Shown one piece after another: positions 10,097 to 40,939 of a DNA stretch of 41,269 bases (within the stretch, counting starts at the first letter, position 1; each line of letters opens with the position of its first letter). A program made the translations under genes and the position numbers. The notes under the pieces are model-generated. The model did no database searches. It was not told the origin of the DNA and worked only from the letters and a program-made list of their open reading frames with translations. Source of the DNA: Cyanobacteriota bacterium (GTDB taxonomy: Bacteria; Cyanobacteriota; Vampirovibrionia; LMEP-6097); contig JAQCFG010000012.1 in NCBI GenBank assembly GCA_027618255.1, forward strand, positions 1 to 41,269. The letters run 5' to 3'.

Positions 10097-10221
10097 AATG
10101 ATGTAGATGATTCTAGCAGATTACCTAAATTATTTCTTTATATTTTTTAGATACCTTAACTAAATTATCTGACTACTGGTCGAGACTGCTCAGGGTGATG
10201 TAGAAATCGTATACTTGAGAA

Positions 10222-11451
10222 ATGCAAAAAATTTCCCTTAGCTTATTAGTTCTTTTACTAAGCACGCAAATAGTTGGAGCAAAATCAATGCAGCGCGAAA
10301 GAGCAGAAGCAATTCTTGCAAAGAAATGCATGGACTGTCATTCTGATCAAACTGTTTACCCATGGTACTCCAAGCTTCCTATCGTGCAGTCTGTAATTCA
10401 GGCTGATATCGACAAAGGTAAAAAATATTTTCATTTAGAGAAAGAACTGTTTGCAATAGAGGATGATAAAGATCTTCCCAAATATATTTTTGCAAGACTC
10501 ACTGACGTAATCAAGAATGATTCAATGCCACCAGTGCAGTATCGTATCGCTCACTGGGACAAGGTTTTGACTCCGCAGGATAAGCAAGCTCTAGGTGAAT
10601 GGTTGGATCAATACAGCGTAACAGCTATTAAGCCATTGCCTGATCCAGCGACTTTGAATTTGGATGAAAGCAAAGTAGCACTCGGCAAGAAATTATTTCA
10701 TGACACACGTTTGTCAGGAGACAACAGTCTCTCTTGCGCCTCTTGTCATGATCTTGCCAAAGGAGGAACTGACCAAGCGCAATATTCTACAGGGATCAAC
10801 GGAGCCAAAGGTCATATTAATTCACCAACAGTATTCAACTCGAGTTTTAATTTGAAACAGTTTTGGGATGGACGTGCTGATGATCTTGAAGCACAAGCTC
10901 ATGGACCGGTGCACAACCCAATGGAGATGGGCTCTAACTGGAATCAAGTGCTTGGCAAATTGAAGCGCGATAGAGAATTGAGAAATCTAAGTGGAGATCA
11001 AATTGCAAATGCAATCGCCGAGTTTGAAAAATCATTAATTACTAATGGCAATACTTTTGACCGATATTTAGCAGGTGACACCAATGCAATTTCTGCACAA
11101 GCGCGTCACGGTTATAACTTATTTAAAAAACACAATTGCAACAAGTGTCACAACGGCGCTGCAGTTGGCGGTGCTAGTTTTGAGAAGATGGGTTTGACTA
11201 AGGATTACTTTGCTGGGCGTGAGCTTTCAGTTGAAGACAATGGTCGCTTTAACGCCACTAAGGATCCAATGGATAAGCACAAATTCAAGGTGCCGATCTT
11301 ACGTAATATCAAAGATACTTATCCGTATTTTCACGATGGCTCTGTCAATAGCTTGAATGATGCGGTTGCAATTATGGGCGAGTATCAAGTAGGTAAAAAA
11401 CTCAATAAGAAAGATATTGAGGCTATAGTTGAGTTTTTGAAGACACTTTAG
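10222..11451 (+). CDS. Di-haem cytochrome c peroxidase (MauG/CcpA family) with fused N-terminal haem-binding domain
   Basis: This is an exported c-type cytochrome of 409 aa. Residues 1-20 form a signal peptide ending QIVGA. Residues 30-135 form a haem-binding domain with CMDCH (36-40) followed by the typical TVYPWYSKLP stretch. Residues 145-409 are a bacterial cytochrome c peroxidase/MauG module with two haem motifs, CASCH (172-176) and CNKCH (306-310), the FWDGRADDLEAQA block and a C-terminal FHDGSVNSLNDAV block. In the family such enzymes reduce H2O2 in the periplasm using electrons from cytochrome c. Three covalent haems in one chain are inferred. TATACT lies 6 bases before the ATG, with no Shine-Dalgarno sequence. 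No cytochrome maturation genes are visible nearby. Confidence 0.9.
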   Translation: MQKISLSLLVLLLSTQIVGAKSMQRERAEAILAKKCMDCHSDQTVYPWYSKLPIVQSVIQADIDKGKKYFHLEKELFAIEDDKDLPKYIFARLTDVIKNDSMPPVQYRIAHWDKVLTPQDKQALGEWLDQYSVTAIKPLPDPATLNLDESKVALGKKLFHDTRLSGDNSLSCASCHDLAKGGTDQAQYSTGINGAKGHINSPTVFNSSFNLKQFWDGRADDLEAQAHGPVHNPMEMGSNWNQVLGKLKRDRELRNLSGDQIANAIAEFEKSLITNGNTFDRYLAGDTNAISAQARHGYNLFKKHNCNKCHNGAAVGGASFEKMGLTKDYFAGRELSVEDNGRFNATKDPMDKHKFKVPILRNIKDTYPYFHDGSVNSLNDAVAIMGEYQVGKKLNKKDIEAIVEFLKTL

Positions 11452-11464
11452 GGGTTTTCAGTCG

Positions 11465-11494
11465 TTGATTTTATCTTGTGTGATGTGTTAATAT
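11465..11494 (+). promoter_or_regulatory. Probable promoter with -35 and start-proximal -10
   Basis: TTGATT (11465-11470), an 18-bp spacer and TAATAT (11489-11494) lie 9 bases upstream of the ATG at 11504. The message would start within a few bases of the start codon. Confidence 0.5.
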
Positions 11495-11503
11495 AGGTTT
11501 ATT

Positions 11504-12100
11504 ATGAAAGTTTTCCGCGAGCCTACAATACCAGCTTCTCAAGTAAAGCGAAGTAATGCTGAGTTTGCTTTGGATGGGCAGCATTTGAGTGCGGATGCGA
11601 TTAGAAAGATTGTAGATTCAGGTAATCAAGCTCTCGGTTTGATTAGCATATTGTCTTATGATCCACAAGCTAAGACAGTTAAAATTCTTGATTCTAAGCA
11701 TCAGCTTTTAGAAGAAGCGACTAGTCACGGAGTTCTAATTAGAAGAGGTGATGGCAAGTTAACTCTTATATCGAAATACCGACAAGACCCAGCGAAAGTC
11801 AAGGCTAGTAGTTTTGGAGCTTCAGAAGTGGACCAAGAAGTTGTTTTAGTAGAAAGTGGTTCAGGGAGAGAGAAGCTTTTGGTTAAAGCTAGAATTGATT
11901 ACGCTGCAAAATATGATGATTATGCGGACTCTCGAAATATTATTCATTTTACGATTGATGATGGTGACACTCATATTGAAGAAGCTAAATCAATTAATGC
12001 TTCTGGAAAGTTGTTAGATTTTAGTGCTGACGTTGCAGATGGACGATCTGTGTTGCCAAAAGCATTACATGTTTATAGACCAGGAAATGAAGCCGCCTAA
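11504..12100 (+). CDS. Hypothetical protein
   Basis: I do not recognise this 198-aa protein. It is soluble-looking, without signal peptide or transmembrane segment, and predicted by eye to be mixed alpha/beta with several short hydrophobic strands (for example GLISILSY, GVLIRRGDGKLTLIS, NIIHFTIDDGDTHI). It follows the peroxidase gene by about 50 bases but has its own promoter-like sequence. Its stop overlaps by four bases the stop of the convergent gene downstream. Confidence 0.65.
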   Translation: MKVFREPTIPASQVKRSNAEFALDGQHLSADAIRKIVDSGNQALGLISILSYDPQAKTVKILDSKHQLLEEATSHGVLIRRGDGKLTLISKYRQDPAKVKASSFGASEVDQEVVLVESGSGREKLLVKARIDYAAKYDDYADSRNIIHFTIDDGDTHIEEAKSINASGKLLDFSADVADGRSVLPKALHVYRPGNEAA

Positions 12101-12801
12101 CTCTTCCTTTCCATTATAGAATCAAAAGCTTTGTGAGCATCAGCAAAGTTCTGGCTTGGAAGCTGCTGTAGTACTGAGTTTAAAGCTTCGCTGAGCCTCT
12201 TGTTGAATGCCTTAAATACAGCAAGTTCTATTTTAAGACCTTCATCTTTTAAATCTTCTCTCATCATTGCTTTGTATTTATTGATAGTCTTAAAATGAAT
12301 ATCAATGAGATCATGAGCAAGTGATCTTAAGTCTTCTTTGCTTTTTTTGGTTAGTAAATCAGTTGGGAGCTTGGCAATATGAAAAACTTGGTTGAGTAAT
12401 CGAGTAAATGGTTGTAGTACATCTTCAAGTGAAGTGTCTTCTGCAACTTTGTTTGTCATCATCGAAATTAAGTCAGTGCTTGTACCATTAGCAAGTCCAT
12501 AACGTCTATCTTTGATTTCACCTATAAGCCCAGCATGGATTAATATATAATTGGACAATCCTTGTTGCGTGTTAGGACTAGGGCTCTGAAAATACTTTTC
12601 TAGTCTTGTTGTAATGAAACCTAGTGGTTGGTCACTGTCTATTGTGACTAAGCGCCTGACTAGATTTTCATTTGGTGGCCTTGTGTTAAAGAGTTCACCA
12701 ATGCTTTTTGGATGGCGAGGGGAGGGTAGCTCTGTTCCACCAATGATTAGAGAATGATCTGAATTGATATAGATTGGGGCTGCATCGCCTATAGCTACCA
12801 T
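12097..12801 (-). CDS. Hypothetical helical protein
   Basis: I do not recognise this 234-aa protein. It is largely alpha-helical and charged, especially residues 120-234. I chose the ATG at 12801 (MVAIGDAAPIY) because TATAAT at 12809-12814 sits 7 bases upstream, the spacing found at many genes here. An ATG nine bases further up (12810) overlaps that box and is less likely. It is convergent with the 198-aa gene, with a four-base overlap of stops. Confidence 0.62.
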   Translation of the reverse strand: MVAIGDAAPIYINSDHSLIIGGTELPSPRHPKSIGELFNTRPPNENLVRRLVTIDSDQPLGFITTRLEKYFQSPSPNTQQGLSNYILIHAGLIGEIKDRRYGLANGTSTDLISMMTNKVAEDTSLEDVLQPFTRLLNQVFHIAKLPTDLLTKKSKEDLRSLAHDLIDIHFKTINKYKAMMREDLKDEGLKIELAVFKAFNKRLSEALNSVLQQLPSQNFADAHKAFDSIMERKS

Positions 12802-12835
12802 AATGATCATTATAGCAAAGAATCTTTAGGTTAGC

Positions 12836-12963
12836 TTAATAATTACCAAAGTTGTTTTGCCATGCTTGTGGATTGTCGGGATCTTGATAGAGTAGTGGTC
12901 CGGTAAATTCTGGTAAATGGCTAGAAAGTATTTTTAGTGCATACTGGATAATATGAGTTTTGA
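12836..12963 (-). pseudogene. Possible remnant of a coding 3' end abutting the repeat
   Basis: On the minus strand this stretch reads as an open frame ending LPEFTGPLLYQDPDNPQAW and a further seven residues before TAA at 12836. The composition looks like real protein, but there is no ATG, GTG or TTG start in frame before the sequence runs into the 103-bp repeat at 12964. It may be the tail of a gene whose front was replaced by the repeat. With only about 40 residues this is tentative. Confidence 0.3.
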
Positions 12964-13066
12964 GCTTGTAGTTTAGCGGTAGCAGCGCCACAGATACTCT
13001 GCAGGCGAAACAGAGACCCGCGAAAAGAATCAAAAAACGATTAATAATCTTTTTTTGACATGGGTT
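12964..13066 (+). ncRNA. Structured repeat unit A, putative small RNA
   Basis: This 103-bp unit is about 98% identical to unit B, 168 bp downstream. It contains a stem CGCC/GGCG enclosing CAGA-UAC-UCUG, and a near-perfect 13-bp hairpin (13030-13058) with arms of tcaaaaaacgatt type. A strong terminator follows at 13096. The start (gcttgtagtttagcggtagc) looks like the 5' half of a tRNA, but no matching 3' half exists. The plus strand is favoured because the C-to-T difference between units leaves a G-U pair in plus-strand RNA but a C-A mismatch in minus-strand RNA. Family unknown. Confidence 0.45.
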
Positions 13067-13095
13067 GTGTATAAAACTCCCCCATAAAAAGAAAA

Positions 13096-13120
13096 GACCC
13101 CTTGTGGGGTCCTTTATTTT
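13096..13120. terminator. Bidirectional rho-independent terminator after repeat unit A
   Basis: Stem GACCCC (13096-13101), loop TTGT, stem GGGGTC (13106-13111), followed by CTTTATTTTT on the plus strand. On the minus strand the same stem is followed by TTTTCTTTTT, so it can end transcription either way. Confidence 0.8.
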
Positions 13121-13131
13121 TATAATGGTGG

Positions 13132-13234: not shown

Positions 13235-13260
13235 TCTCCAAAGCTCCCTACAAAAGAAAA

Positions 13261-13287: not shown

Positions 13288-13290
13288 TAA

Positions 13291-17844: not shown

Positions 17845-17873
17845 GAGGCTCTTTACTAAAAGCTTGGTACAAT

Positions 17874-20800
17874 ATGATAGTGGCTATACCTGCATCTATA
17901 CGTGTGCTTTATCGAAGCATTGGAAATATAATCGGCAACAAGATAGCCGATCGTATTAAGCAAGATACTCAGCTTAATCAAGATCAGGAGACGCGTGAGA
18001 CTTGGGCAAAACTTTTTATTAAGACAATTACTGAATTGAGAGGAGAACTTGCTGGCGCACGTGATTTTGATCAGGTCGCTAAGGTCATTAGTAAACTTGA
18101 AGCTAATAAAGACAATGCCAGTTATATCAAGTTGCTCGCTTGGATTATTGAGGCGTATTTATTATTAAACCAGTCTAGTACTGCATGTGCTGAGGTGACT
18201 AAGCCTTATGCCTTGTTGCCAGAGAGGGTTTTTGCTGCTGAATTGATAAAGGGAGCAGATAAAGAATTAGCTTCGATCTTAGCAGATGAATTTTCTGCCA
18301 ACCTTGTGCTTACGGCACATCCAACTGCTGGTATTCAACCTGATTATATTCATCACATTAAAGCCATGGTTGAAACTATTCAGGAGATGAGTTACAGAAT
18401 AGACCCTGAGTCTTGGTCTGATTTTAAGGATGAACAAGTTGAAGATTTACTTGAGGACTTGAGCATTTCAATCTCTCACATGGTTAGAGCCAAGCCTTAT
18501 AATAGTGATCAATTGCGACCAGTTGATGAGAGTCGCAATTTTTTGGATAATCTTGCTGAAGCCTGGGATATTATTCCTGCTAATGTACAAGCCGTTGAGA
18601 GAGAGCTTTGCAAAACACAAGGTAAAGAATTTAAGTTGAGTGCAAAATTCTTTAAGCTGCATAGTTGGGTTGCTAGAGATATTGATGGTAATCCTAGTGT
18701 TAGCGAAGAAGAGCATTTGGGAGCTATTTTCCAAGAACGGATTCATTTCTTGACTAAATACAGGCTTGAACTTGATAAGCTTTGGCAGAATTATGGTGAT
18801 GATTTTACTAATGACAAGTCATACCCGATGAAAACATTTTTTGTTGATGATAGCTTTAAGGCACTTTATGATGAATTAATCAAGAAGTTTGATAATTTGA
18901 TTGTTAATCCCCATCAGGCTTACAGAGTAGTGATCCATTATGGAATTGTACTTAAAATAGAGGTCTTGATAGATAAGTTGCTCAAAATTGATGCCATGAA
19001 TTCTGATTCAGTTAAACTATTTGCGTCTTTTGATGTGCAGAATGATATTATTGCCCCGCTAGAATTGATTCGTGCTAACAAAGTTACCAATGCTAGTAAC
19101 ATTAGTACCAAAGAAATTGATATATTGATTCGCAAAGCTAAGGTCTTTGGGGACTTCGGTTCGCAGGGACACACTAGGCAAGGAGCTGATATTCTTGCCA
19201 AGCTAACCAAGTACCTGACTGCGCTTTGGGATGGTCAAGTAGCTAATAAAACTAATTATGTGATGGATATAGAGACGGTCACCAAGAGTGCTAAGCCAAT
19301 TAGATTATTCTCTGATTACAAGCCAATTGTGAACTATCAAGTTTTGCGTAACAAAATTACAATTCAGTTTATGTCTGAAACGGACAAGGCAAAACATAAA
19401 TTGTTACAGACTTTTGATTTGCTTGTACTCGCTGAGTTAGGTGCAATCAAGCGACAAATAATTAGTATGAATAGCAGTTTTGAGGATATGCTCAATGTGC
19501 TCGTGATTGCTAAGACGATGAAGGCTTTTAGTCCTGCCTTGCGCGAGCAGTTGCCTCTCTCGCGGCTTGAAATAGTGCCGCTTACCGAGCAGATTTGTGA
19601 TTTGCGTAATTCTTATAGGGTGACGATTGATGCTTTAACCAATCCAGCTTGGCATCAGTATTTGATCTCCCAGGATGGACGTTTTATTAAGATGCGTGGT
19701 CCTTCGGATAGTGGCAAACAAAATGGATTTACAGCCTCTCAGTGGGAGATGTTTAGATCTAAGCAATTGGATACCATTGTCGTTAAGATTTTTAATGCTT
19801 ATTTGCGTCATCAATTAGATGGTGATTCTAAACAATTAGATGCTTGGCGCAAGCTTGCTAGCGGCGCTGAATTTACTGATGATGAACAAAAAAGCGAAAT
19901 AGAAGTTATTGCAATTGCTGTAAAAGATTTTGATGAGTTTTTTGATCGCAAACCAAGTGCCAAGCCTAAGGTGGATGTACTAATGGGCGAGAACTGCTTT
20001 GACAAGATTTTGTGGAAGGCGGCTGGACTCAAAGAAGTCAAAATGATCAATTTTGATGGTTGGGGGGAACCTGTGGAACGCGGTGGTGGACTGGAGTTTC
20101 GTGATACTGTTAAGTGCACTCAGCCCACTGGCTCGATTGCTTATTACGAGCGAACTTTGCAAGGAGGTGGCGCGCAGCAACTTGCTTCAGGCTTGAGAAC
20201 GAAGCAGGCGACGCAGGATTTTATTAGTGGTGTTTATGATATTGCAATTAGACAGCGAGATTTTAATCAAGAAGAATTAACGACCAAGAAACTAGAAGAT
20301 TTTTACAAGAAGAGTTTTGTGTTAGATCCTAAATTCACGAAATTGATGAATGGGATGGTGCAGTCCTTGCGTCTGTCATTAAGGTCAGAGGTCTTTGGAT
20401 TGGATCTTGATGATGATCACAAAGTGAGTGATGAAACGATCTTGCGAAATTATTTTAGGCATGTAATTAAGTCACCTTTGGTTTTCCTGGATCTTTTCAA
20501 CATCGCTTCCCGACCAACTTCTAGGTCAGGCTCCCAGCTTAAGGAGTATCTTGATAAACCAGAGTTTCATAATCAGCTTGATTTACTAGCAGAGAAATTA
20601 ACTACTGCAGAGATAGTTTCTATACTTGGAGATGTGCGTGCAATTCCTTATGCTGCGATGTTTAGTTTACTGGGTGGTAATCATGTGAGTTTTTATGGCT
20701 TTGGTAAATTAATGGCAAATGCTGATCTTGTCGAGAGTATTAAATATTTTTATGATCAGGATGATTCTCAAGAATCCCGTTTGATAAAGCATGTAATTGA

Positions 20801-21495: not shown

Positions 21496-21650
21496 GATTA
21501 TCTGCCTTTATCTTCTATTTATACCCATTTTTTGAGTATCCTAAACATCCCTTGAATATAAAAAGCACTGTAAACAGAGGAATTTACTGTATTTACAAGT
21601 GTAATTTCGTAATAACCCGGAATGGATAAGATTACAATAGTGTGGTGGTT

Positions 21651-22511
21651 ATGCAATTCGCTATCTTGAATATCACACCAGACTCATTCTCGGATGGTAA
21701 TGAGACCAATCTTGATGCGTCTTGCTCGCTTGCTAAGGCAAAAGAGCTTAGGCAGACAGGGGCTGATTTTATAGATATTGGAGCGGAGTCGACACGTCCA
21801 GGAGCAAACACAATAAACCATGAAATAGAATTAGCAAGACTAATACCTTTTCTTGATCTACTCGAGGCTCAGGGCTCGGAACTGAGCGGGCGATTGTCAT
21901 TGGACTCACGTAATCCACACGTAATCCAGAAGGTCTTTCAAGACTACAGCAAGCATTTTGCTTTTGTCAATGACGTAACTGGTTTGCAAAATCGAGAGCT
22001 ACTTAAAGTAGTTGCCCAGCAAGTTGATCCCAAGGTGAAGCTCATTAGCATGCACTCCAAAGGCGGTGTGCCACCTAGTATTAAAGCTGCAGAGATTAGG
22101 GATGATTTTTATGAAATGGGCTTACTGGAAGATCTCAAAAGGTTTTGGGATCAAACAATCATGACTTGCCAAGAGTTTGGTATTGATTCAGATCGTTTGA
22201 TTTTGGATCCGGGTTTGGGTTTTGGTAAAAATTTAAATCATTCCTTAGAGATTCTTGAATTGATACCCAAGCTTAAGCAAGAGTTTGCTTTGCCTATATT
22301 GATTGGAGCTAGTCGTAAGAGTTTTTTGGCTTTGTGGCATGCGTCTTCTCTCCCGTCTTCGCTTCGCTACGACGCGACTCAACCAGGTAAGGAGCAGGAT
22401 CAATTGACACAAGAATATAATGAACTTGCCGTTAAACAAGGAGTAAATTATTTGAGAAACCATGTCATTGCTACGGCTCTGCCAGTCGCTGACGTAGAGT
22501 GTTATAATTGA
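21651..22511 (+). CDS. folP: Dihydropteroate synthase
   Basis: FolP condenses p-aminobenzoate with hydroxymethyl-dihydropterin pyrophosphate in folate synthesis. Signatures are NITPDSFSDG at the N-terminus, DIGAESTRPGA, a VNDVTG block, LDPGLGFGK, IGASRKSF and the closing RNHV. An insertion of about 15 residues (around SSLPSSLRYDATQPGKEQ) lies before the last helix. In-frame GTGs at 21642 and 21645 are alternative starts. TACAAT at 21633-21638 lies 6 bases before the second GTG and 12 before the ATG. Its stop is 4 bases before pheS. The pairing with pheS has no obvious metabolic logic. Confidence 0.94.
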   Translation: MQFAILNITPDSFSDGNETNLDASCSLAKAKELRQTGADFIDIGAESTRPGANTINHEIELARLIPFLDLLEAQGSELSGRLSLDSRNPHVIQKVFQDYSKHFAFVNDVTGLQNRELLKVVAQQVDPKVKLISMHSKGGVPPSIKAAEIRDDFYEMGLLEDLKRFWDQTIMTCQEFGIDSDRLILDPGLGFGKNLNHSLEILELIPKLKQEFALPILIGASRKSFLALWHASSLPSSLRYDATQPGKEQDQLTQEYNELAVKQGVNYLRNHVIATALPVADVECYN

Positions 22512-22515
22512 TCCG

Positions 22516-23562
22516 ATGGAACTGACCCTCAAAGATACACGTGAAGAATTAAGCAAGCTTGAAGCAGAGGCAGCAAGTGAGTTTCCTCGTGCAAATGATT
22601 CTAAAACACTCAATGATATTAGAGTGAAATACCTTGGTGACAAAAGCACTATTGTTAATTTGCGCCGTAATATGAAGCATGTATCCAATGAAGAGAAACC
22701 AGAGTTTGGTAAGTTAATTAACCAAACTCTTAATGTAATTCAAACAAGTTTTGAGACTGCTAAAACTAGAATCGAAACTGCTGAACTTAATGCCAAACTT
22801 GAGAAAGAAAGAATAGATCCGAGTCTACCTGGCTTGGGTACAAAGCTCGGTAATTTACATCCATTGACGATGGTAACGAATGACATCGTCAAGATTTTTG
22901 AAACTATGGGTTTTTCTTTGGTAGATGGTCCTGAGATTGAGAATACTTATTACAACTTCACGGCACTCAACACGCCTGAAGATCATCCGGCAAGAGATGA
23001 GCAAGATACTTTTTATACTAGCCTTGGAGACGATGTTTTACTTAGATCACATACCTCGTCTATTCAAATTCGTGCCATGGAGAGACTCAAGCCACCATTT
23101 AGAATTATTGGGCATGGCAGAGTCTATCGTAATGAAGAAGTCAACGCGCGCAAGATGCCCTTCTTTCATCAACTTGAAGTAATGATGATTGAAGAGAATG
23201 TCAATTTTGGTAATATGAAATGGGTGCTTAATGAATTTCTCAAGCAGTTTTTTGGAGAGGAGCTGCCGACAAGATTCCGTCCGGATTTTTTCCCGTTTAC
23301 TGAGCCGTCTGCTGAGCTTGATGCCCAGTGTGTTTTTTGTAAGGGCAATGGCTGCACTACTTGCGGTAACCGCGGTTGGCTAGAGCTAATGGGTTGCGGT
23401 ATGGTTGATCCTAAGGTTCTTGAGATGGCAGGAATAGATCCAGAGAAGTATTCTGGTTTTGCAGCTGGTCTTGGAATAGATAGATTTGCGATGCTTAAAT
23501 ACAAGATTAATGATATTAGATTTATGTTTAATGGGGATCAAAGATTTTTGAATCAGTTTTAG
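22516..23562 (+). CDS. pheS: Phenylalanine-tRNA ligase alpha subunit
   Basis: PheS is the catalytic class II subunit of the alpha2-beta2 enzyme. The 348-aa product has an N-terminal coiled coil (1-90), LHPLTMV, motif 2 FRIIGHGRVYRNEEVNARK, FPFTEPSAE and the motif 3 region GLGIDRFAMLKY. An internal CVFCKGNGCTTCG cluster could bind zinc, as seen in several bacterial PheS proteins. pheT is not adjacent, so the beta subunit must be encoded elsewhere. TATAAT (22503-22508), inside the folP tail, lies 7 bases before the ATG, suggesting an independent leaderless transcript. Its last 11 sense codons and stop recur at 24801-24836. Confidence 0.97.
   Translation: MELTLKDTREELSKLEAEAASEFPRANDSKTLNDIRVKYLGDKSTIVNLRRNMKHVSNEEKPEFGKLINQTLNVIQTSFETAKTRIETAELNAKLEKERIDPSLPGLGTKLGNLHPLTMVTNDIVKIFETMGFSLVDGPEIENTYYNFTALNTPEDHPARDEQDTFYTSLGDDVLLRSHTSSIQIRAMERLKPPFRIIGHGRVYRNEEVNARKMPFFHQLEVMMIEENVNFGNMKWVLNEFLKQFFGEELPTRFRPDFFPFTEPSAELDAQCVFCKGNGCTTCGNRGWLELMGCGMVDPKVLEMAGIDPEKYSGFAAGLGIDRFAMLKYKINDIRFMFNGDQRFLNQF
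23527..23562 (+). repeat. pheS 3' end, left copy of a 36-bp direct repeat
   Basis: The last 12 codons of pheS, including the stop, match 24801-24836 at 31 of 36 bases. Apart from the first codon (TTT versus GTT), all differences are synonymous: CAA/CAG, AGA/CGG and AAT/AAC. Residues NGDQRFLNQF are identical. Confidence 0.85.
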
Positions 23563-23583: not shown

Positions 23584-23648
23584 CTAATATGAAAAATGCA
23601 TGTAATTTCATATTAGCATTGTGGTAAATAGGGTATAATTCATATTAG
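23584..23648 (+). promoter_or_regulatory. Promoter and dyad operator of the DUF4143-type ATPase
   Basis: Perfect 11-bp arms ctaatatgaaa (23584-23594) and tttcatattag (23606-23616) precede a consensus TATAAT (23634-23639). A third tcatattag (23640-23648) directly abuts the ATG. The -10 is 9 bases from the start codon, so the transcript would be leaderless, and the repeats bracket the promoter like an operator. Confidence 0.55.
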
Positions 23649-24794
23649 ATGATAGAAAGATCACTCAAGCTACCATTAGAGGGCTCTCAAAGTATATTTT
23701 TGTTTGGCCCTAGAGGGGTAGGTAAGAGCTACTGGTTATCAAGGCAGCTGCCAGGAGCCTTGTACATTGATCTCCTGGATAGTCAAATACGTTTTGATTT
23801 GGAGGTAGATCTATCAAGATTGAGAAGGTATCTTAGTCAAGATCTTAATCAATGGATTGTAATTGATGAGATACAAAAGCTTCCTGAGCTACTTGATGAG
23901 GTTCATAAATTAATTGAACAAGATTCTCGCAAATTTGTTCTTACTGGCTCTAGTGCTCGTAAGCTCAAACGAGAAGGAGTGAATTTACTTGCTGGACGAG
24001 CTTTAACTTATAAATTATTTCCTCTGACAGCGATTGAACTTGGCTGTCAGTTTGATCTTGCTCATTCATTAGAGTTTGGACATATGCCTAGTATTTATGA
24101 CAAACTGGATTTAAATAAAACAGATTATTTGAATTCCTATATCAAAACCTACCTTAAAGAAGAAGTAATGCAGGAAGGGCTTGCAAGAGATCTTGCTGCG
24201 TTTTCTCGTTTCTTGGAAGCTGCAAGCTTCTCACAAGGTTCTACCCTTAATATCAGTGCGATTGCACGTGATGCTTCTGTCAAAGCTAATACGGTTGCTG
24301 GCTATTTTGATTTAATTGAGGATATGCTAGTTTCATATCGCTTGCCAGTTTTTACTAAGCGCGCCAAGAGGCGTTTAGTAGCTCACCCCAAGTTTTATTT
24401 TTTTGATGCTGGTATTTATTATCATCTTAGACCCAAAAGTATTTTGGATTCTGTTTCTGAGTTGCATGGAGCTGGCTTGGAGACTTTGGTCTTGCAAGAT
24501 CTGCTTGCTGTTAATGAATACAATAAACTTGGTTATCAAATATTTTACTGGCGTACCACTAATGGCACAGAAGTAGATTTTGTTGTGCTTGGAGCAAAGA
24601 AGTTACTAGCGATAGAAGTTAAACACTCAAGTAAATTCCACCCTAAGGATTTTACTGGGCTTAAGGCTTTTAAAAAGGACTATCCAGAAGCGGAGTTGAT
24701 GCTTTTGTATTTAGGTAGTGCTAAGCAAGAGTATCAAGGGATTCAAGTGATTCCGGTTCAGGAGTTTTTGCCTGGTTTGTTGAGGTATCTTTGA
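23649..24794 (+). CDS. AAA_14/DUF4143 family ATPase
   Basis: This 381-aa protein has an N-terminal P-loop ATPase with Walker A FGPRGVGKS, Walker B QWIVIDEIQKLP and sensor-like FVLTGSSARKLK. The C-terminal DUF4143 part has the PD-(D/E)XK-like pattern TEVDFVV...LAIEVK. Such genes are widespread, patchily distributed and often horizontally moved. Their function is largely unknown. Here the gene lies alone between two copies of the pheS 3' end, with its own dyad-bracketed promoter, which strongly suggests insertion as a unit. No integrase or transposase is present. The middle region around residue 140 is shorter than in many family members. Confidence 0.88.
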   Translation: MIERSLKLPLEGSQSIFLFGPRGVGKSYWLSRQLPGALYIDLLDSQIRFDLEVDLSRLRRYLSQDLNQWIVIDEIQKLPELLDEVHKLIEQDSRKFVLTGSSARKLKREGVNLLAGRALTYKLFPLTAIELGCQFDLAHSLEFGHMPSIYDKLDLNKTDYLNSYIKTYLKEEVMQEGLARDLAAFSRFLEAASFSQGSTLNISAIARDASVKANTVAGYFDLIEDMLVSYRLPVFTKRAKRRLVAHPKFYFFDAGIYYHLRPKSILDSVSELHGAGLETLVLQDLLAVNEYNKLGYQIFYWRTTNGTEVDFVVLGAKKLLAIEVKHSSKFHPKDFTGLKAFKKDYPEAELMLLYLGSAKQEYQGIQVIPVQEFLPGLLRYL

Positions 24795-24840: not shown

Positions 24841-24861
24841 AATGTGTTAAGATAACACATT
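24841..24861 (+). promoter_or_regulatory. Perfect dyad abutting the start of the 384-aa gene
   Basis: Nine-bp arms aatgtgtta/taacacatt around aga end exactly at the base before the ATG at 24862. TAAGAT within it could be the -10, so the dyad may be an operator overlapping a start-proximal promoter. In RNA it could instead sequester the start codon. Confidence 0.5.
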
Positions 24862-26815: not shown

Positions 26816-27766
26816 TCAAGCAAAATCTACCAAGACATTCTCATTTCTATTTTGAGAAATCTGTCCATAAAAATAGGTACCAATATTGTTTAGTATCATG
26901 TTGAAGTGATTAATTGGATCAATGATTTCTTGTGGTAGGAAGCGTTGCAAGGCGTCTAGCACTGCATTGACGGCGTAGAAGATACCGGCTTTTTTCATGT
27001 CTGGATCTTGATGCTGAATCATTGTAATATCACCAGCAAAGCCACCAATATTGCGAATCAGTCCGCCTAGCTTGTTCATGAAGTTACGTTTGTTGGCGCC
27101 GAAGATCACACCAAGTAAGGAACCAACAAAGATAGTATGTCCAAAGACAGCCATGGTATGTCCTTGGTCTTTATCACTTCCAACAAAAATCTTTCTATTT
27201 TTACCGAGACCACCCTGGATAATCTCTTCAAGTATCTTGGTGCCGGCTTTAATATTTTTAAAGAAGTTATCAGCTTTGCTCATGACCCTGTCACCTACCA
27301 AGTGATTTTGGGTGAAGTCAAGCAAAGTCATTCCAGCACTCATACCCCTGGCTAGATGAATGTCTTCCAATTTCATCCAAGGTACAAAGAGAGGGTCGAG
27401 TGCTCTAGCGATAAAATCAATGACCTTGTTATTCTTGAGGGCTTCAACAGCTAGGTGAGCATAACGAATAGAAGTTACAGCTTTGGAGACTCTGACTGTA
27501 TTGGTGTTGAGAAAATCAGTGAGAGGTTTTGGTAAGAAATTCTTCAGGCAATTTAGTCCGGTGATTGCATGCATTGTTGACGAGATCCAATAGCCGTATT
27601 TGGGGAAATGCTTGGTAAAAAATTGATTTACAGCTCCATCTTCTTTAGGACTAAGAGTAGTTTCTGCTTTTACTACTAAAGGTTCTAATTTAGAACGGCT
27701 TGAAACAGTCTCTCTGGAATAAAGACCATCATGTAAGTTATTAGCTGCTTGGAGAAGCATGCTCAT
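26816..27766 (-). CDS. Hypothetical protein with hydrophobic segments
   Basis: I do not recognise this 316-aa protein. It has hydrophobic, glycine-rich stretches that may be membrane-associated, for example MAVFGHTIFVGSLLGVIFG (about residues 222-240) and a weaker one around YGYWISSTMHAITGL. No catalytic motif is visible. TATAAT (27775-27780) lies 8 bases before the ATG with no Shine-Dalgarno sequence. It lies 27 bases downstream of atpD, where atpC (epsilon) would be expected, but the sequence is not epsilon-like. Confidence 0.65.
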   Translation of the reverse strand: MSMLLQAANNLHDGLYSRETVSSRSKLEPLVVKAETTLSPKEDGAVNQFFTKHFPKYGYWISSTMHAITGLNCLKNFLPKPLTDFLNTNTVRVSKAVTSIRYAHLAVEALKNNKVIDFIARALDPLFVPWMKLEDIHLARGMSAGMTLLDFTQNHLVGDRVMSKADNFFKNIKAGTKILEEIIQGGLGKNRKIFVGSDKDQGHTMAVFGHTIFVGSLLGVIFGANKRNFMNKLGGLIRNIGGFAGDITMIQHQDPDMKKAGIFYAVNAVLDALQRFLPQEIIDPINHFNMILNNIGTYFYGQISQNRNENVLVDFA

Positions 27767-27793
27767 AAGATAAGATTATAGCTTATTCTAGAA

Positions 27794-30088
<2,295 letters not shown>

Positions 30089-31439: not shown

Positions 31440-31689
31440 TAAGAGCTTCTGACTCTGTGGAGCAGATGTCAGATTGGGGATTAGATTTTGTCTTTTTTTG
31501 TGAGTTATTCATATGATCAACATAGCGTTTGATTTTGACAATACTCAGTATTAAGCCACAAGCTGCTGCAATAAGAATAGAGTTAACTAAATAATCGCCT
31601 TCACGGTTGTTCTCAAGCCAAGTGCCAACGAAGTAGCCTATTGCTACTGTTGCCGGGATTACATAGGCGATATCGATTAGTGGTCCCAT
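31423..31689 (-). CDS. Small two-TM membrane protein, possibly AtpI/AtpZ-like
   Basis: This 88-aa protein has two hydrophobic helices, IAYVIPATVAIGYFVGTWL and LVNSILIAAACGLILSIVKI, separated by a short charged loop, and a Lys/Asn-rich tail. Size and layout resemble the ATP synthase-associated AtpI/AtpZ family (glycine-rich double hairpin), but the conserved motif is not clear and the gene is not in an ATP synthase operon. TACAAT (31696-31701) lies exactly 6 bases before the ATG. Confidence 0.6.
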   Translation of the reverse strand: MGPLIDIAYVIPATVAIGYFVGTWLENNREGDYLVNSILIAAACGLILSIVKIKRYVDHMNNSQKKTKSNPQSDICSTESEALIKDPT

Positions 31690-31730
31690 GACTCTATTGT
31701 ATCAATAGACTTGTTCTGAAAGTCGAAATT

Positions 31731-31909: not shown

Positions 31910-32617
31910 TTAGGTTTTCCTGACAACACCTTTAACCACTCCTTGAATCTTGATATCGTCTAATTTGGGATCAATGTATATAGGTTCCATTGTTGGATTT
32001 TCTGGTTGCAATCTTATTCTGCCATCTTCTTTGTAATAACGCTTGAGGGTAGCAGCTTCATCATTAATTAGAGCAACTACAATCTCGCCATTGTGAGCAG
32101 AGTCTCTAGGTTCAATAAGTACCAAGTCACCATCAGAGATTAAAGCATCTATCATGCTTTGACCTTTGACTCTGAGCGCGTAGCAACCTTCTGAAAAATA
32201 AGTATCAAGCTCAAGAAAGTCATTTGCTTTTTCCATAACGTCAAGCGGCGCTCCAGCGGCGATCTTGCCAAGTATCGGAATCTGGCTACGTACAACACTA
32301 AACTCAGGAGCGCCAGCTTCAATAGAACGAGAATCAAAGTTGCCGTTGAATTTATCAGCTTTGCTTATTTCTGGGAATTTTGCTCTGCAATGTCCTAATA
32401 CTTCTTGATCTGAGATTTGTACTGAACGTGCTGACCCAGTGTTCCACGTGACAGCTAATTTCTTGCGAAGTGCTGTCATATGGTACTGGAGGGTGCCCTT
32501 GGTGATGCCCATTTGTGCAGCGATCTCGTCGAGGGTTGGAGGATAATGGAATTGATTAGTGAGTTGGTATATAACTTCAGCTGTTTCTTCTTGTTTGGGG
32601 GATAATTGTGTGGCCAT
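31910..32617 (-). CDS. lexA: LexA-type SOS repressor
   Basis: LexA represses DNA-damage genes and self-cleaves when RecA filaments form. The 235-aa protein has an N-terminal winged helix-turn-helix (TLDEIAAQMGITKGTLQYHM, 28-47), a Gln/Asp-containing linker, the cleavage site AAGAP (Ala121-Gly122), catalytic Ser154 in KGQSM and Lys192 in ATLKRYY. It is somewhat longer than E. coli LexA (202 aa). AGGAG lies six bases before the ATG, and a promoter TTGCCA-17-TACTAT lies upstream. No classical LexA box of either the Gram-positive or the proteobacterial kind is obvious, so its operator needs identification. Confidence 0.95.
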   Translation of the reverse strand: MATQLSPKQEETAEVIYQLTNQFHYPPTLDEIAAQMGITKGTLQYHMTALRKKLAVTWNTGSARSVQISDQEVLGHCRAKFPEISKADKFNGNFDSRSIEAGAPEFSVVRSQIPILGKIAAGAPLDVMEKANDFLELDTYFSEGCYALRVKGQSMIDALISDGDLVLIEPRDSAHNGEIVVALINDEAATLKRYYKEDGRIRLQPENPTMEPIYIDPKLDDIKIQGVVKGVVRKT

Positions 32618-32631
32618 TTGTTGCTCCTATT

Positions 32632-32764: not shown

Positions 32765-33247
32765 CTATATAAAGTAGGTGAGTAACAAGAGACTAAGCAG
32801 GAAATTAATACGGTGCATAATTTCACTTTGTTTGTGAAGGCTTCTAAATTCATTTGAATCATCTTCAAAAGATTGAATTATTGCTGGTGATAATTTAAAA
32901 GCGATATAGAGACTGATAGCTGTGATCGCAATTACCAAGAGTATTGAATTAATTAAATCTCCATTCATGACTTTGGTCATTGCCTCTCCTGTACCGGTTT
33001 CTATAGTGAAGTTGAAACTGTGTATGAAAATCAATTCAGCGAATTTGGCAAGAGCAAGTGCAAGTGCTGAGAATTTGATCCAGCAATCGAATTTGCCGAA
33101 AGTCGTAATCATGATAGTGCTCGCTTCTTCTCGACAGAGATTAGCAAAGAGAGTTGGTGCAACTAATGCGCCGATAACTAGAGTGCCGCCACTGATTATC
33201 ACCAAAGCTAGTAATTGAACGAGATTAAGAATTTCTTGAATGGACAT
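32765..33247 (-). CDS. DUF4149-like integral membrane protein
   Basis: This 160-aa protein has four hydrophobic helices, starting LVQLLALVIISGGTLVIGAL with the family-like GG..GA..AP.LF pattern (VIGALVAPTLFANL). Function unknown. I chose the ATG at 33247 (MSIQEILNLVQLL), because TAGAAT lies 8 bases upstream. A longer frame reaching 33412 runs through the tsaB promoter and is unlikely. It is divergent from tsaB with only 64 bases between starts. Confidence 0.72.
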   Translation of the reverse strand: MSIQEILNLVQLLALVIISGGTLVIGALVAPTLFANLCREEASTIMITTFGKFDCWIKFSALALALAKFAELIFIHSFNFTIETGTGEAMTKVMNGDLINSILLVIAITAISLYIAFKLSPAIIQSFEDDSNEFRSLHKQSEIMHRINFLLSLLLLTYFI

Positions 33248-33311
33248 AAGTGTATATTCTAGAACATGGCTGAGATATATGCAAATCGTGTAAGTTATAA
33301 TCACAAAGCAG

Positions 33312-33896
33312 ATGTTAGTCCTAGCCCTAGATTCAAGTCGCAAACAGCAATCAATTGCTTTATTTAATACTGAAACTAATAAATTTCTATTTAGTCTTAG
33401 TGCCCAAAACAAATCATCACAATTGATGCCTGCTTTGGTTCAAGCCTTTGAGGGAGCCGGTATCAAGCCCCAAGAACTGGAGCTTCTTGCTTGCTCAGTG
33501 GGACCTGGTTCATTTACTGGGATTCGCACGGCTCTCACTATTGTCAAAACTATGGCTGCACAATTGGATCTGCCAATTATAACTGTCAACAATTTCGATT
33601 TACTGCGTCATAAATTCAAGTTGAGCCCCCAAGATCCAGTCTTGATGCATGCTGGCAAGAATGATTATTTTTTGTCTTTAGATAATGATTATAATAATCC
33701 AGAGACAAATTTGTTTTCATTTGAGACCTTGGGCTATGATTTGCTAGATTTGGCCGAGACTAGCACAGCTGAGTTGATAATTGACTACATACAGACTCAT
33801 CCAGAACTCCAGTCAATTAAATATACAGAACTCCAGCCTTATTATTTGCGTGAGCCTAGTGTTAATCAAAAAACTTCTACTGGATTGCCACGTTAG
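33312..33896 (+). CDS. tsaB: tRNA threonylcarbamoyladenosine biosynthesis protein TsaB
   Basis: TsaB is the ASKHA-fold partner of TsaD in making the t6A modification of ANN-decoding tRNAs. The 194-aa protein has LALDSSRKQQSIALF at the N-terminus, the CSVGPGSFTGIRTAL signature and a typical C-terminal tail with PYYLREPSV. TsaD, TsaE and TsaC are not nearby. TATAAT (33296-33301) lies 10 bases upstream of the ATG and no Shine-Dalgarno sequence is present. Confidence 0.92.
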   Translation: MLVLALDSSRKQQSIALFNTETNKFLFSLSAQNKSSQLMPALVQAFEGAGIKPQELELLACSVGPGSFTGIRTALTIVKTMAAQLDLPIITVNNFDLLRHKFKLSPQDPVLMHAGKNDYFLSLDNDYNNPETNLFSFETLGYDLLDLAETSTAELIIDYIQTHPELQSIKYTELQPYYLREPSVNQKTSTGLPR

Positions 33897-33984
33897 GCTG
33901 CCCTGCGGGGCTTTAGTTCCTGTACTGTTGACCAAGGTTGTCCATTCTTCCTGAATCTTCGTAATGATGGCTTATAATAGGACT

Positions 33985-34680
33985 ATGTCCTTAGAGCAAG
34001 CTCTCAAATATTTTAGAGAGGCAGACTTTGCTGCTGCACTCAATGCTTGTCTCAAATTAGAACAAGATCTACATCAAGCAGATTTGTACAAAATTAAGGA
34101 ACTCAAGGCGCGTTGTTTGCTTGAATTGAAACAAGCGCAAGAAGCTAGTGTGATTTTTGAAGAACTAGAACTCTATAGTCAAGCGGCTTATGCGGCGATA
34201 TTGAATCGGGATCTTGAACGTGCTACTCGCCTATATAAAGAAGCGGAGTATTCACCAGCGCGTAAGTGGGGAGAGTTTTTGATTGCGTTTTTACAAAGTG
34301 ATGACAAGCTGTCGATTGCTAGTCCTGGTTACTTGACTTTTAGATTGTACACAGAAGCTACGATTGGTTATTTTTTGACTTACGATCTTAAGGACTATTT
34401 TGATAAATTTTTGCGACATCGTAATGATCTCATTCAGGTTTATCCAGAAACGCTTAAAGATATTGGTTCAGCGTATTTAGCACGTAAAGAATATCAAACA
34501 GCGCTTGTCCTTTTAGAAGAAGCCAAAAGCAAATTTGTACATGATACTGGGGTTCATTTTAAGTCGGCTATGGCTTATTTTGCTTTGGATATGCCTGAAA
34601 AGGCAAAACCCTTCTTAAATACAGTAGCTAAAATGCTACCAGGTAGTACTTTAATCCAGAGATTGTTGAAAATTCACTGA
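33985..34680 (+). CDS. TPR-repeat protein
   Basis: This 231-aa protein is made of helix-turn-helix repeats of tetratricopeptide type, for example ALKYFREADFAAALNACLKL at the start and ALVLLEEAKSKFVHDTGVHF near the C-terminus. It is probably a scaffold. I chose the ATG at 33985 (MSLEQALKYF), because TATAAT (33973-33978) lies exactly six bases before it. An ATG at 33964 lies upstream of that box. A small GC hairpin (gcccTGCGgggc) after the tsaB stop separates the two genes. Confidence 0.75.
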   Translation: MSLEQALKYFREADFAAALNACLKLEQDLHQADLYKIKELKARCLLELKQAQEASVIFEELELYSQAAYAAILNRDLERATRLYKEAEYSPARKWGEFLIAFLQSDDKLSIASPGYLTFRLYTEATIGYFLTYDLKDYFDKFLRHRNDLIQVYPETLKDIGSAYLARKEYQTALVLLEEAKSKFVHDTGVHFKSAMAYFALDMPEKAKPFLNTVAKMLPGSTLIQRLLKIH

Positions 34681-37499: not shown

Positions 37500-38558
37500 T
37501 TATGTTTTCTCAACAATCACAGTCTGAGTAGGGAAAGCCATATCAATACTAGCTTTTTCAAACTCTTCTTTGATTTTTAGATTGATGATTTCGCGAATAC
37601 GCATATATTCAATATAGTCACCAGAAAGGTGATAGTAGACGATTTCAAAATTGAGACTATAAGCTGCAAACTCTTTGAAGTTGACTCTGTCTAAATCAGC
37701 GTTATCAACTTCTGAGAAAATTGTTTTGATGATTTCAGGAATCTGTTTGCATTTATCTAAGCTAGTCTCGTAAGTGACACCGATGGTAAAGGGAATACGG
37801 CGCTTATTCATTTTTTTGAAATTTTGCACGCGAGCACTTGTTAGTTCTTTGTTGGAAATTACAATCTCTTCTCCCTGAAGTGCTTCCAGGCGTGTGCTTT
37901 TCATACCGATCTTTTTAACTGTACCCATGTGCTCCCCGACTGTTATGAAATCACCAACAGCAAAAGGTTTGTCAAAATAGATAGAGAAAGAACTGAAAAT
38001 ATCACCGAGTATATTTTGTACAGCAAGAGCAATGGCAATACCACCAATACCCATACTTGCAGTTAATGAAGTGACATTCACTCCCATGTTTGAGAGGAAT
38101 AGTAAAATACCAACTGCCCAGAGACCAATCTTGATAAAGAGACTAAGACCACTAAATACCATTTGGTCAGCTTCATTCGTTTGATTGTTTTTGAGTGCCT
38201 TGATTAAGAAATATTCAAGGATTTTTTGCGAAGCATTAATGAGTTGGATCATAAAAAGCCCCAAGAAAATTCCACGAATACCCTTGTTAAGAAACTGAGC
38301 CAAGATCAAAGAATGGCTTGCAAAATAGAGAGCGGTAAGATCATAAAACCGTGGATGTATAGCATCCAAAATCTCAACTAATGTGTCATCGAAGTGGGTT
38401 GGGGTTGCAGCAGCTATTTTGCGTAATCTGCCTAGAATAATTTTGCGAAAGATTCTAAATAGAATCAGTAGCCCAATAAAGATTCCGATCGCATATAAAT
38501 ATTGTTCAATTGTGTTTCCAAAAAATTCTTGATTTAATAGTTCTTGGTAATTGCTCAT
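37500..38558 (-). CDS. Small-conductance mechanosensitive channel, MscS family
   Basis: This 352-aa inner-membrane channel releases solutes on hypo-osmotic shock. It has an extra N-terminal pair of helices, then the pore helix region GIGGIAIALAVQNILGDIFS (TM3) followed by FDKPFAVGDFI, the beta domain (GTVKKIGMKSTRLEALQGEE) and the C-terminal alpha/beta domain. TAAAAT (38565-38570) lies six bases before the ATG with no Shine-Dalgarno sequence. It is divergent from the barrel protein gene, with 49 bases between starts. Confidence 0.93.
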   Translation of the reverse strand: MSNYQELLNQEFFGNTIEQYLYAIGIFIGLLILFRIFRKIILGRLRKIAAATPTHFDDTLVEILDAIHPRFYDLTALYFASHSLILAQFLNKGIRGIFLGLFMIQLINASQKILEYFLIKALKNNQTNEADQMVFSGLSLFIKIGLWAVGILLFLSNMGVNVTSLTASMGIGGIAIALAVQNILGDIFSSFSIYFDKPFAVGDFITVGEHMGTVKKIGMKSTRLEALQGEEIVISNKELTSARVQNFKKMNKRRIPFTIGVTYETSLDKCKQIPEIIKTIFSEVDNADLDRVNFKEFAAYSLNFEIVYYHLSGDYIEYMRIREIINLKIKEEFEKASIDMAFPTQTVIVEKT

Positions 38559-38607
38559 TGAATTATTTTAACAAATTTGACCAATGATGTTAGACTTAGC
38601 CCATTAA

Positions 38608-39333
38608 ATGAACCTTGTTCGGCTATTATTTGTTTTATTTTGTGTAACTAATTCTTTAGCTATTGGCGCTGAGCCAATTAGTTTTGAGCGTGGTGGTATT
38701 TCTGATTCTCCAGGGATTGTTCGACCAAAGTCTTTGCAACTTGAATTTGGTTTACTTGATTATACGAATACAAATCAATCTAGTTATACTCTTGGTACTA
38801 GTCTGTTTCGTTATGGTTTAATTCAAGATAGATTTGAGTTGCGGTTTTTAGGTAGTGGCTTAGAGTTTGTCGATGATGGCTTGAACTTTAATCATATTGC
38901 ACCTGGCTTTAAAGTCAATTTGCTTAAAGAGCAGCGACATCTACCAAGTCTTGATTTGATTTCTCATGTTGCAATTCCGCTTGATGGTAATTTTGCGCAT
39001 TTCTATAAATTCCTGATTAATAAAGAATTGAAAGAGAAGCTCAAATTTTTGACTAACTTGAGTTTAAATTTTGATAACCATCAAGGACATACAGATAGCT
39101 ATCTGCCTTATGTTTTTGATTTGAATTATGAGTTAAACGCAAAACTCAGTGCCTTAGCAGAAGTTTTTGGTACTTGGTCTATGACTGGTGATGCTGGAAA
39201 TCCTCTAGGACTTGCTTATGGTTTTACTTATTTATTATCCGATGATACCGGGATTGATTTTACTAATTTCTACGGATTGAATGAATCTGCTGCTGATATT
39301 GGAATTAGTTTTGGTATGAGCCATCGTTTTTAA
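38608..39333 (+). CDS. Outer-membrane beta-barrel-like exported protein
   Basis: This 241-aa protein has a signal peptide (1-21, VRLLFVLFCVTNSLAIGAEP) and a series of alternating hydrophobic/polar strands ending in the C-terminal phenylalanine of GISFGMSHRF, the typical Bam recognition pattern. The fold resembles the phenol-degradation MetA-like/transporter barrel group, but no substrate can be named. It is good evidence for an outer membrane in this organism. Confidence 0.75.
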   Translation: MNLVRLLFVLFCVTNSLAIGAEPISFERGGISDSPGIVRPKSLQLEFGLLDYTNTNQSSYTLGTSLFRYGLIQDRFELRFLGSGLEFVDDGLNFNHIAPGFKVNLLKEQRHLPSLDLISHVAIPLDGNFAHFYKFLINKELKEKLKFLTNLSLNFDNHQGHTDSYLPYVFDLNYELNAKLSALAEVFGTWSMTGDAGNPLGLAYGFTYLLSDDTGIDFTNFYGLNESAADIGISFGMSHRF

Positions 39334-39378
39334 GACGGGGCTGTGACATGTTATTATGGAGCCAATTAGTGTTAATCG

Positions 39379-40335
39379 ATGTCAAAAACTAAAACACATT
39401 TTGTAGTACTGGGAATGGGGGCCGTTGGTGGCTTTTATGGTTTACGTTTAGCAAAGTATCTGCAGGAGAAGCCAGATGTTTATCGTTTGAGTTTTATTGC
39501 ACGCGGCAAAACACTTGAGGCTTTGCGTGAAGGCGCGACATTGATTGATGGTGATGAAGAAATCAAAATTAGTAATTTAAATTGCTTTGAGGATTTTAGT
39601 GAGATTGGTTTTGAGACTGATGAACAAGTAGTAGTTTTGCTTTGTGTGAAATCTAAGGATACACTTGAGGCTTGCCAGTCTTTGTTGGGTGACCCGAACG
39701 TTGCTTCGCTCCTGAGGATGGCGGTTGTGTCTATCCAAAACGGTGTGGAGAATGAAGAGCGGATTGCTTCAGTGCTTGGTAAGGAGCGAACAATTGGAGC
39801 GTTAACAAATATTGCAGCAGAAGTTCTAGAGCCAGGTCGTTATATTAATAAGGGCAAATATAGTCTAGTTCTTGGTGAGCTTGATGGATCTTCAAGTGAG
39901 AGGCTTGATCGAATAATGGAGCTTTTGCGTGCTGCTGGAATCAATACACGCATTAGCGAGAATATTTACCAAGAGCTTTGGTCTAAATTAGTTTGGAATG
40001 CTGGTTTTAATCCGACTAGTGTTTTGTATCAAATGACAGTCGGGCAGTTATTAGAGAAACCAGAAATAAGAGAAGTGATTGTGGGAGTAATGCAAGAAGT
40101 GAAACAAGTAGCTCATGCACTTGGATATGATTTGGCTGATGATGTAGATCAAAAACATATCGCAAGAACAGATACTCCCGAGTGGTATAGCTTTAGAACT
40201 TCAATGCTGCAAGATCATCAAAATGGCAAGCCAATAGAACTTGATGATTTGCTTGGAGTTGTAGTACGTAAGGGGCAAAAGAAAGGGATTAATACTCCTT
40301 ATGCTACTAAGTTATATAAGGATTTACTGGTATAA
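39379..40335 (+). CDS. 2-dehydropantoate 2-reductase (PanE/ApbA family)
   Basis: PanE reduces ketopantoate with NADPH in pantothenate synthesis. The 318-aa protein has an N-terminal Rossmann motif VVLGMGAVGGFYGLRLA, CVKSKDT, SIQNGVENEE and the C-terminal catalytic region with LWSKLVWNAGFNP (Lys), the SMLQDHQNGKPIELDDL block and GINTP. Family membership is strong. Several paralogues act on other ketoacids, so panE itself is not certain. No other pantothenate gene is nearby. Confidence 0.88.
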   Translation: MSKTKTHFVVLGMGAVGGFYGLRLAKYLQEKPDVYRLSFIARGKTLEALREGATLIDGDEEIKISNLNCFEDFSEIGFETDEQVVVLLCVKSKDTLEACQSLLGDPNVASLLRMAVVSIQNGVENEERIASVLGKERTIGALTNIAAEVLEPGRYINKGKYSLVLGELDGSSSERLDRIMELLRAAGINTRISENIYQELWSKLVWNAGFNPTSVLYQMTVGQLLEKPEIREVIVGVMQEVKQVAHALGYDLADDVDQKHIARTDTPEWYSFRTSMLQDHQNGKPIELDDLLGVVVRKGQKKGINTPYATKLYKDLLV

Positions 40336-40342
40336 TTTTTGT

Positions 40343-40939
40343 ATGGACTTGTATCGAATTGGTTTATTGTTTGTTTGTTTTCTTGCTTTGCCTAGTTTTG
40401 CTATGGAAACCAGATTTGAGAATCGGTTATTAGAATATGATCTTGGTACTGTTACTGATTTTGTGAGTCTTGAGCCTAATAAAAAACAAAATATCGTCAA
40501 ACTACGTGTAAAGGGATTAGATCCAGAGACTATTGGCAGTGTTCAATTGCAGGATTATGGTTTGAGTAACAAATACTTGCGTATTTTAACGGAAGGAAGC
40601 AAGACGGTGCCAGATACAGGCGTCGTGGATTTTAATTTAAGAGTTTCATCTGTTCGTGTGAATCCACAAGCTACCACTATTTACCTGAGACCGTTTAAGC
40701 TCAGTGATGGTCTAGAAACGGAGACCATAGCTCTAAGAATTTTTGTTGCTGATGATACTACGATTGTTGGTTGTGCAGCAGTTTTAGTAAATGATTGTTA
40801 CCAGATAGATTTTGATAGTCTAGATGAGCAAACAATTTTTTATACTTATACTGGTTCTCCTTGTAGTATTTATAGTGAATATGACAAAGTTGACCTGAGT
40901 CTGTGTGGACTTGATGCTAATGGGGCTCCATTGAATTAA
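40343..40939 (+). CDS. Secreted hypothetical protein
   Basis: This 198-aa protein has a signal peptide (MDLYRIGLLFVCFLALPSFA, 1-20) followed by a beta-rich domain with four Cys in the C-terminal part (CAAVLVNDC, SPC, SLC) that may form disulphides. I chose the ATG at 40343, because TATAAT (40331-40336) lies exactly six bases before it and overlaps the upstream stop. An in-frame ATG at 40301 falls inside the reductase gene. It is unrecognised. Confidence 0.68.
   Translation: MDLYRIGLLFVCFLALPSFAMETRFENRLLEYDLGTVTDFVSLEPNKKQNIVKLRVKGLDPETIGSVQLQDYGLSNKYLRILTEGSKTVPDTGVVDFNLRVSSVRVNPQATTIYLRPFKLSDGLETETIALRIFVADDTTIVGCAAVLVNDCYQIDFDSLDEQTIFYTYTGSPCSIYSEYDKVDLSLCGLDANGAPLN

Follow-up and report, generated by a model that had tools for sequence, protein, structure and literature searches.

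Near-consensus extended -10 boxes adjoining start codons suggest widespread leaderless mRNA in a genome of the cyanobacterial phylum

Many genes that stand first in a transcription unit of the genome described here carry a near-consensus -10 box only a few bases before the start codon, and almost all of these lack a Shine-Dalgarno (SD) sequence. Such a box lies 6–10 bases from the first ATG in 112 of 384 transcription-unit-first genes, compared with 11 at a control distance. The arrangement very likely reflects widespread leaderless, or nearly leaderless, mRNA transcribed from extended -10 promoters, beside SD-directed initiation. The starting point was an initial annotation of the window (the whole stretch of 41,269 nucleotides analysed here), in which the genes were proposed to be predominantly leaderless.

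Source genome and definitions

The window is one contig of a 1.99-Mb MAG (104 contigs, GC 39%). Its atpA is 98–83% identical to contigs labelled Candidatus Melainabacteria, Candidatus Caenarcanales and one uncultured bacterium, and 75% identical to one contig labelled Candidatus Caenarcaniphilales. The MAG most likely represents an uncultured member of Candidatus Caenarcaniphilales, inside the Melainabacteria/Vampirovibrionia. Genes were called with our own simple codon-usage caller, which is blind to upstream signals, on 827,540 bases of the MAG itself (G000); the sample thus comprises ~0.83 Mb of G000 and roughly 20 to 180 kb of each other genome. The gap is the number of bases between hexamer and start codon, a near-consensus box is a match of at least 5/6 to TATAAT, and starts are first-ATG starts. 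The family labels f1–f11 serve as search handles, f1 being the family of the window genome.

Boxes before start codons in the window

A TANNNT hexamer is present, at the gap originally given, at all 17 starts for which the initial annotation had listed one (Table 1), and none of the 17 genes has an SD 4-mer at -20 to -5. At least 9 of the 17 boxes also carry the TGn of an extended -10, a feature that had gone unmentioned. With first-ATG starts, TANNNT is found at gap 6–10 in 16 of the 37 window genes, compared with 5.7 ± 2.2 in composition shuffles (highest count among 2000 shuffles, 14), and a match of at least 5/6 to TATAAT in 10 of 37, compared with 1.4 ± 1.1.

Table 1. Promoter boxes next to start codons in the window, with lexA as an example of the SD class
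Feature	Position	Strand	Gene or remark
TATACT, gap 6	10210..10224	+	di-haem cytochrome c peroxidase-like gene, ATG 10222; Pfam CCP_MauG
TGtTAATAT, gap 9	11486..11506	+	ATG 11504
TGcTATAAT, gap 7 from ATG 12801	12799..12817	-	in-frame upstream ATG 12810 overlaps box
TGgTACAAT, gap 6 from GTG 17880, gap 0 from ATG 17874	17865..17882	+	PEP carboxylase-like gene
TACAAT, gap 6 from GTG 21645	21633..21647	+	folP
TGtTATAAT, gap 7	22500..22518	+	pheS
TATAAT, gap 9	23634..23651	+	AAA_14/DUF4143 gene
TGtTAAGAT, gap 8	24845..24864	+	ATG 24862
TATAAT, gap 8	27764..27780	-	ATG 27766
TGcTAAAAT, gap 7	29222..29240	-	ATG 29224; F1 ATPase alpha/beta-type subunit (atpD-like)
TGtTAAAAT, gap 9	9527..9547	-	atpA
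TGaTACAAT, gap 6	31687..31704	-	ATG 31689
TAGAAT, gap 8	33245..33261	-	ATG 33247
TATAAT, gap 10	33296..33314	+	TsaB/TsaD-family gene
TATAAT, gap 6 from ATG 33985	33973..33987	+	TPR protein; two in-frame ATGs upstream
TGtTAAAAT, gap 6	38556..38573	-	MscS-type channel gene
TGgTATAAT, gap 6 from ATG 40343	40328..40345	+	start codon ATG 40343
Shine-Dalgarno AGGAG	32615..32631	-	lexA, ATG 32617; SD-class example

For the PEP carboxylase-like gene, the homologues in G003 and G006 align from residue 1 of the protein that starts at GTG 17880. The product (17880-21236, + strand, 1118 aa) is predicted to be a divergent PEP carboxylase homologue, scoring 145.8 bits against a family cut-off of 815; near full-length homologues occur in its own family, G009 gives a weak partial match, and none was found in G010 and G011. 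Elsewhere in the window, at 37500-39333, the start codons of a divergent gene pair lie 49 bases apart, so that two promoters must fit in those 49 bases.

The motif across the genome

The enrichment extends to the genome. A 441-kb sample contains 133 box matches at gaps 5–10, compared with 56.7 ± 7.1 in dinucleotide shuffles. In the enlarged sample, TANNNT occurs 155 times at gap 5–9, against 71.6 expected from independent column frequencies (ratio 2.17); by the same null, the observed/expected ratio is 0.98 at gap 20–39. TATAAT itself is found 37 times at this distance, compared with 2.4 in a span of equal length. The initial annotation had made its proposal depend on an enrichment over shuffled sequence with the same A+T content, and such an enrichment is seen both in the window and in the genome.

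The upstream motif profile that had been proposed as a check recovers the extended -10 in the window's own genome and in the pooled members of its family. A de novo EM search (at most one motif per sequence, no prior) over 30 bases upstream of the 384 first genes gave tG.TAtAAT as leading motif, with a fraction of 0.45 and a top gap of 6; for the pooled family members the leading motif was tG.TA.AAT. Among operon-internal genes, the search returned the SD motif AAGGAg. When upstream sequences are aligned on the hexamer, the columns at -3 and -2, which were not selected for, hold T in 56% and G in 62% of cases. The boxes have the TGn before TATAAT that marks a sigma-70 extended -10 element. A scan for the -35 hexamer TTGACA some 17 bases before the -10 box shows only a slight rise at spacer 17–18, with TTG in 5 and 8 of 106 cases and 1.9 of 6 positions matching on average; a -35 element is at best weak, or there is none. 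Matches to sigma-70 region 2 occur at eight places in the 2-Mb genome.

Distance between box and start codon

In a test that makes no use of annotation, all 214 TGnTAnAAT sites on both strands were collected, and downstream starts opening at least 60 codons were counted per gap. ATG was found 2, 1, 0, 2, 2 and 1 times at gaps 0–5, and 20, 17, 13, 10 and 4 times at gaps 6–10. GTG occurs 3 and 4 times at gaps 6 and 7, and there is almost no TTG. No step between gaps 5 and 6 was seen by this test in families f2, f3, f5, f7 and f8 or in E. coli. The step at gap 6 is what would be expected if transcription began seven bases downstream of the -10 hexamer, since a start codon nearer than that would be cut off from the message. 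Matches continue as a tail at gaps 11–14, from which leaders of several bases would result.

The density of near-consensus -10 boxes in intergenic sequence is 5.90% at gap 6–10, and 0.56–0.85% per bin from gap 15 outward. Expressed per first gene, the excess of such boxes is 0.284 (0.235–0.342) at gap 6–12 and 0.013 (-0.047 to 0.082, an interval that includes zero) at gap 15–80, the latter being a minimum, since the intergenic sequence that served as baseline, at gap 101–134, may hold promoters of its own. Because of this difference in excess, the detectable first-gene promoters of this genome appear to be nearly all of the leaderless type. The pooled family members show both classes, with an excess of 0.22 at the near gap and 0.25 at leadered distance. 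The term "predominantly" in the initial annotation is thus appropriate for the detectable promoters of first genes, but not for all genes: 29% of first genes are covered by the near-consensus box, and 45% by the de novo motif within 30 bases.

Genes with Shine-Dalgarno sequences

An SD 4-mer is present in 2 of the 112 box-bearing first genes, compared with 69 of the 272 without a box (p = 1.5e-9). At gap 6–10, a near-consensus box is missing from more than half of the first genes, and 203 of the 384 lack both the box and an SD 4-mer. The corresponding figures for operon-internal genes are 34% with SD and 14% with a box. The 16S 3' end retains GGATCACCTCC (anti-SD CCTCC) in the genome itself and in all relatives examined, and this intact tail rules out loss of the anti-SD as the cause of the box pattern. 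Both S21 and an S1-domain protein are encoded in the genome.

The suggestion that two translation classes exist side by side is borne out by the near absence of SD sequences from box genes and their presence at operon-internal genes and lexA. In one of the SD genes then cited, at 29342, codon 5 of the frame reads TGA. At this locus (29342-30088, + strand), a good SD sequence GGAGG and an ATG precede the TGA, and the open frame after it contains a Tat-like RRDFLRK stretch; the frame measures 243 aa, compared with a 255-aa open frame in the G001 homologue (59% identity). The gene may be disrupted, its sequence may contain an error, or it may use another start.

Alternative readings of the boxes

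The unselected TG, the cutoff at gap 6, the exclusion of SD sequences, the preference for first genes and the scarcity of boxes at leadered distance all support leaderless transcription. If the boxes were instead a by-product of a general A+T richness that keeps the mRNA unfolded, initiation could be leadered and SD-independent, for example S1-dependent. The columns directly before the starts are indeed A-rich, an S1-domain protein is available, and the 203 first genes with neither signal would fit. However, composition does not account for the TGn extension or for the abrupt rise from gap 5 to gap 6, and TANNNT reaches 2.2 times its column-composition expectation at gap 5–9 while remaining at 0.98 times at gap 20–39. 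A composition artefact is rejected by both the column-independent and the dinucleotide-shuffle nulls, and we regard this explanation as highly improbable.

The position of the starts themselves deserves equal attention. Seven of the listed items (33985, 40343, 12801, 29224, 33247, 21645 and 17880) have other in-frame starts upstream, and choosing the start that fits the box is mildly circular. The result is not driven by that choice, because the box is kept in first genes with a strict start, for which an alternative start is lacking both upstream and in the 20 codons that follow: 42 of 126 have a box at gap 6–10, and only 3 of 126 at the control gap 51–55. The same subset argues against a general miscalling of start codons, by which the boxes would drive leadered transcripts and the proteins would begin further downstream. 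The use of first-ATG starts and the existence of alternative starts in some genes leave room for such errors, but predicted starts line up with those of orthologues, and miscalls are rejected by the strict-start subset together with the annotation-free test; the idea is, if anything, even less credible than a composition effect. A less remote, but still unlikely, alternative is that the +1 position in box-bearing genes lies away from the first base (A or G) of the start codon. Many boxes at gaps 7–14 would agree with this, whereas the gap mode of 6, with its sharp lower cutoff, does not. The choice of transcription start site varies by a few bases, and gaps 6–9 therefore fit true leaderless starts.

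Comparison with relatives

In the window's own family (f1), a box at gap 6–10 is found in 45 of 187 genes, compared with 6 at control distance (p = 9e-10). A second family, f6, probably shares the pattern, with 17 of 67 against 3 (p = 6e-4; 160 kb from two genomes), and there the box was not recovered by the de novo motif search. No pattern was seen in f3, f8 and f2 (4 of 204, compared with 2 at control), in f5 and f7 (2 of 71, compared with 7), in three genomes of the cyanobacterial phylum (0 of 150 with a box) or in E. coli. The counts for f4 (11/68 vs 6/68, p = 0.15) and f11 (7/67 vs 4/67, p = 0.27) do not differ significantly. SD is the leading de novo motif in f2, f3 and f8, in f4 and in the cyanobacterial-phylum genomes. 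It is also the top motif in the D. deserti control, which consists of plasmid sequence only, yet this control is positive in the TANNNT test. The trait appears patchy, occurring in the window's family and maybe one more, and absent in five sampled Melainabacteria families. From the 16S tree, f1 and f6 may or may not be sisters, and the trait may have had one or two origins.

Among orthologues that share a start, presence of the box is correlated: it is found in both in 8 cases, in one only in 4 and 3, and in neither in 21 (p = 0.002); at control gaps of 20–25 and 25–30, paired boxes are also found in 4 of 36. Two genes illustrate how the distance can vary. In the window and in L009, L010, L011 and L012, atpA has TGtTAAAAT, TGcTAAAAT or TGcTAATAT at gaps 6–10 and no SD, and in L013 (4641-4700) and L015 (9941-10000) a TGcTAACAT lies about 30 or more bases off, followed by an SD-like AAGGAA. 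The pheS box is at gap 7–8 in G000, in the same-genus genomes G001 and G002 (GTG start) and in G004, and at about 21 in G003 and G006, and G011 has an SD-like GAGGAA. Over both genes, the distance of the remote boxes from the start ranges from 21 to 36 bases. This looks like one promoter exchanged between leaderless and leadered forms, in one direction or the other.

Discussion

We propose that the boxes represent true extended -10 elements of the sigma-70 type, TGnTAtAAT, with a weak -35 or none, and that transcription would start on the start codon or up to about four bases before it, as judged from box position. About one-third of the transcription-unit-first genes would then produce leaderless or nearly leaderless mRNA that is read without an SD, and 70S ribosomes presumably recognise the AUG, or occasionally GUG, at its 5' end. 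An SD that pairs with the intact anti-SD would be kept by operon-internal genes and by part of the first genes. A more far-reaching view, that the genome is nearly without leadered sigma-70 transcription and that the trait occurs in this family and possibly one other while the sampled sister families are leadered, is conceivable, but we consider it somewhat doubtful.

The -10-motif-adjacent ORFs of Deinococcus-Thermus, experimentally tested in Deinococcus, are similar, with TANNNT adjoining the ORF, leaderless expression and an RBS class alongside, and make up ~30% of ORFs (PMC12340547, and D. deserti as cited therein). The Caenarcaniphilales box, identified from sequence, differs in being a near-consensus TGnTAtAAT, and the genome that carries it belongs to a different phylum and has a GC content of 39%. 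TA-led leaderless genes have been reported from Actinobacteria, Deinococcus-Thermus and scattered others, likewise with a TA-like signal ~12 bases before the start, and the low-GC genomes among them have TAtAAT, some with TG, as in the present MAG (Zheng et al. 2011, PMC3160421). Cyanobacteria are not among the phyla that the text of this survey of 953 bacterial genomes lists as having leaderless genes (PMC3160421). In GeneMarkS-2, as summarised in PMC9581028, a leaderless class comprises 21.6% of bacterial species, with up to 40% of transcripts, and promoter and RBS patterns are mixed within one genome, as they are here. The same summary cites Cyanobacteria to illustrate a class whose upstream pattern is weak and whose mechanism is obscure (PMC9581028); the non-photosynthetic Caenarcaniphilales MAG differs from that class. 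In Cyanobacteria, the region from -20 to -10 is biased towards A+T, which has been considered possibly leaderless or S1-related (PMC5397173). No paper joining "leaderless" and "Melainabacteria" was found, and the domain-wide survey of PMC12340547 may include the phylum. The mechanism is already known from Deinococcus and actinobacteria; its occurrence in Caenarcaniphilales and its patchy distribution appear unreported.

With these observations, the bacteria that make heavy use of leaderless mRNA would come to include a lineage from the cyanobacterial phylum. Gene finders that assume an SD could misplace starts in Caenarcaniphilales genomes, and several window genes have rival in-frame starts near the box. 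Because the trait differs between sampled families of one class, the gain and loss of leaders may be traced gene by gene, as in atpA and pheS. If leadered transcription has indeed been nearly abandoned, the lineage would offer a natural experiment in which leaders are gained and lost one gene at a time.
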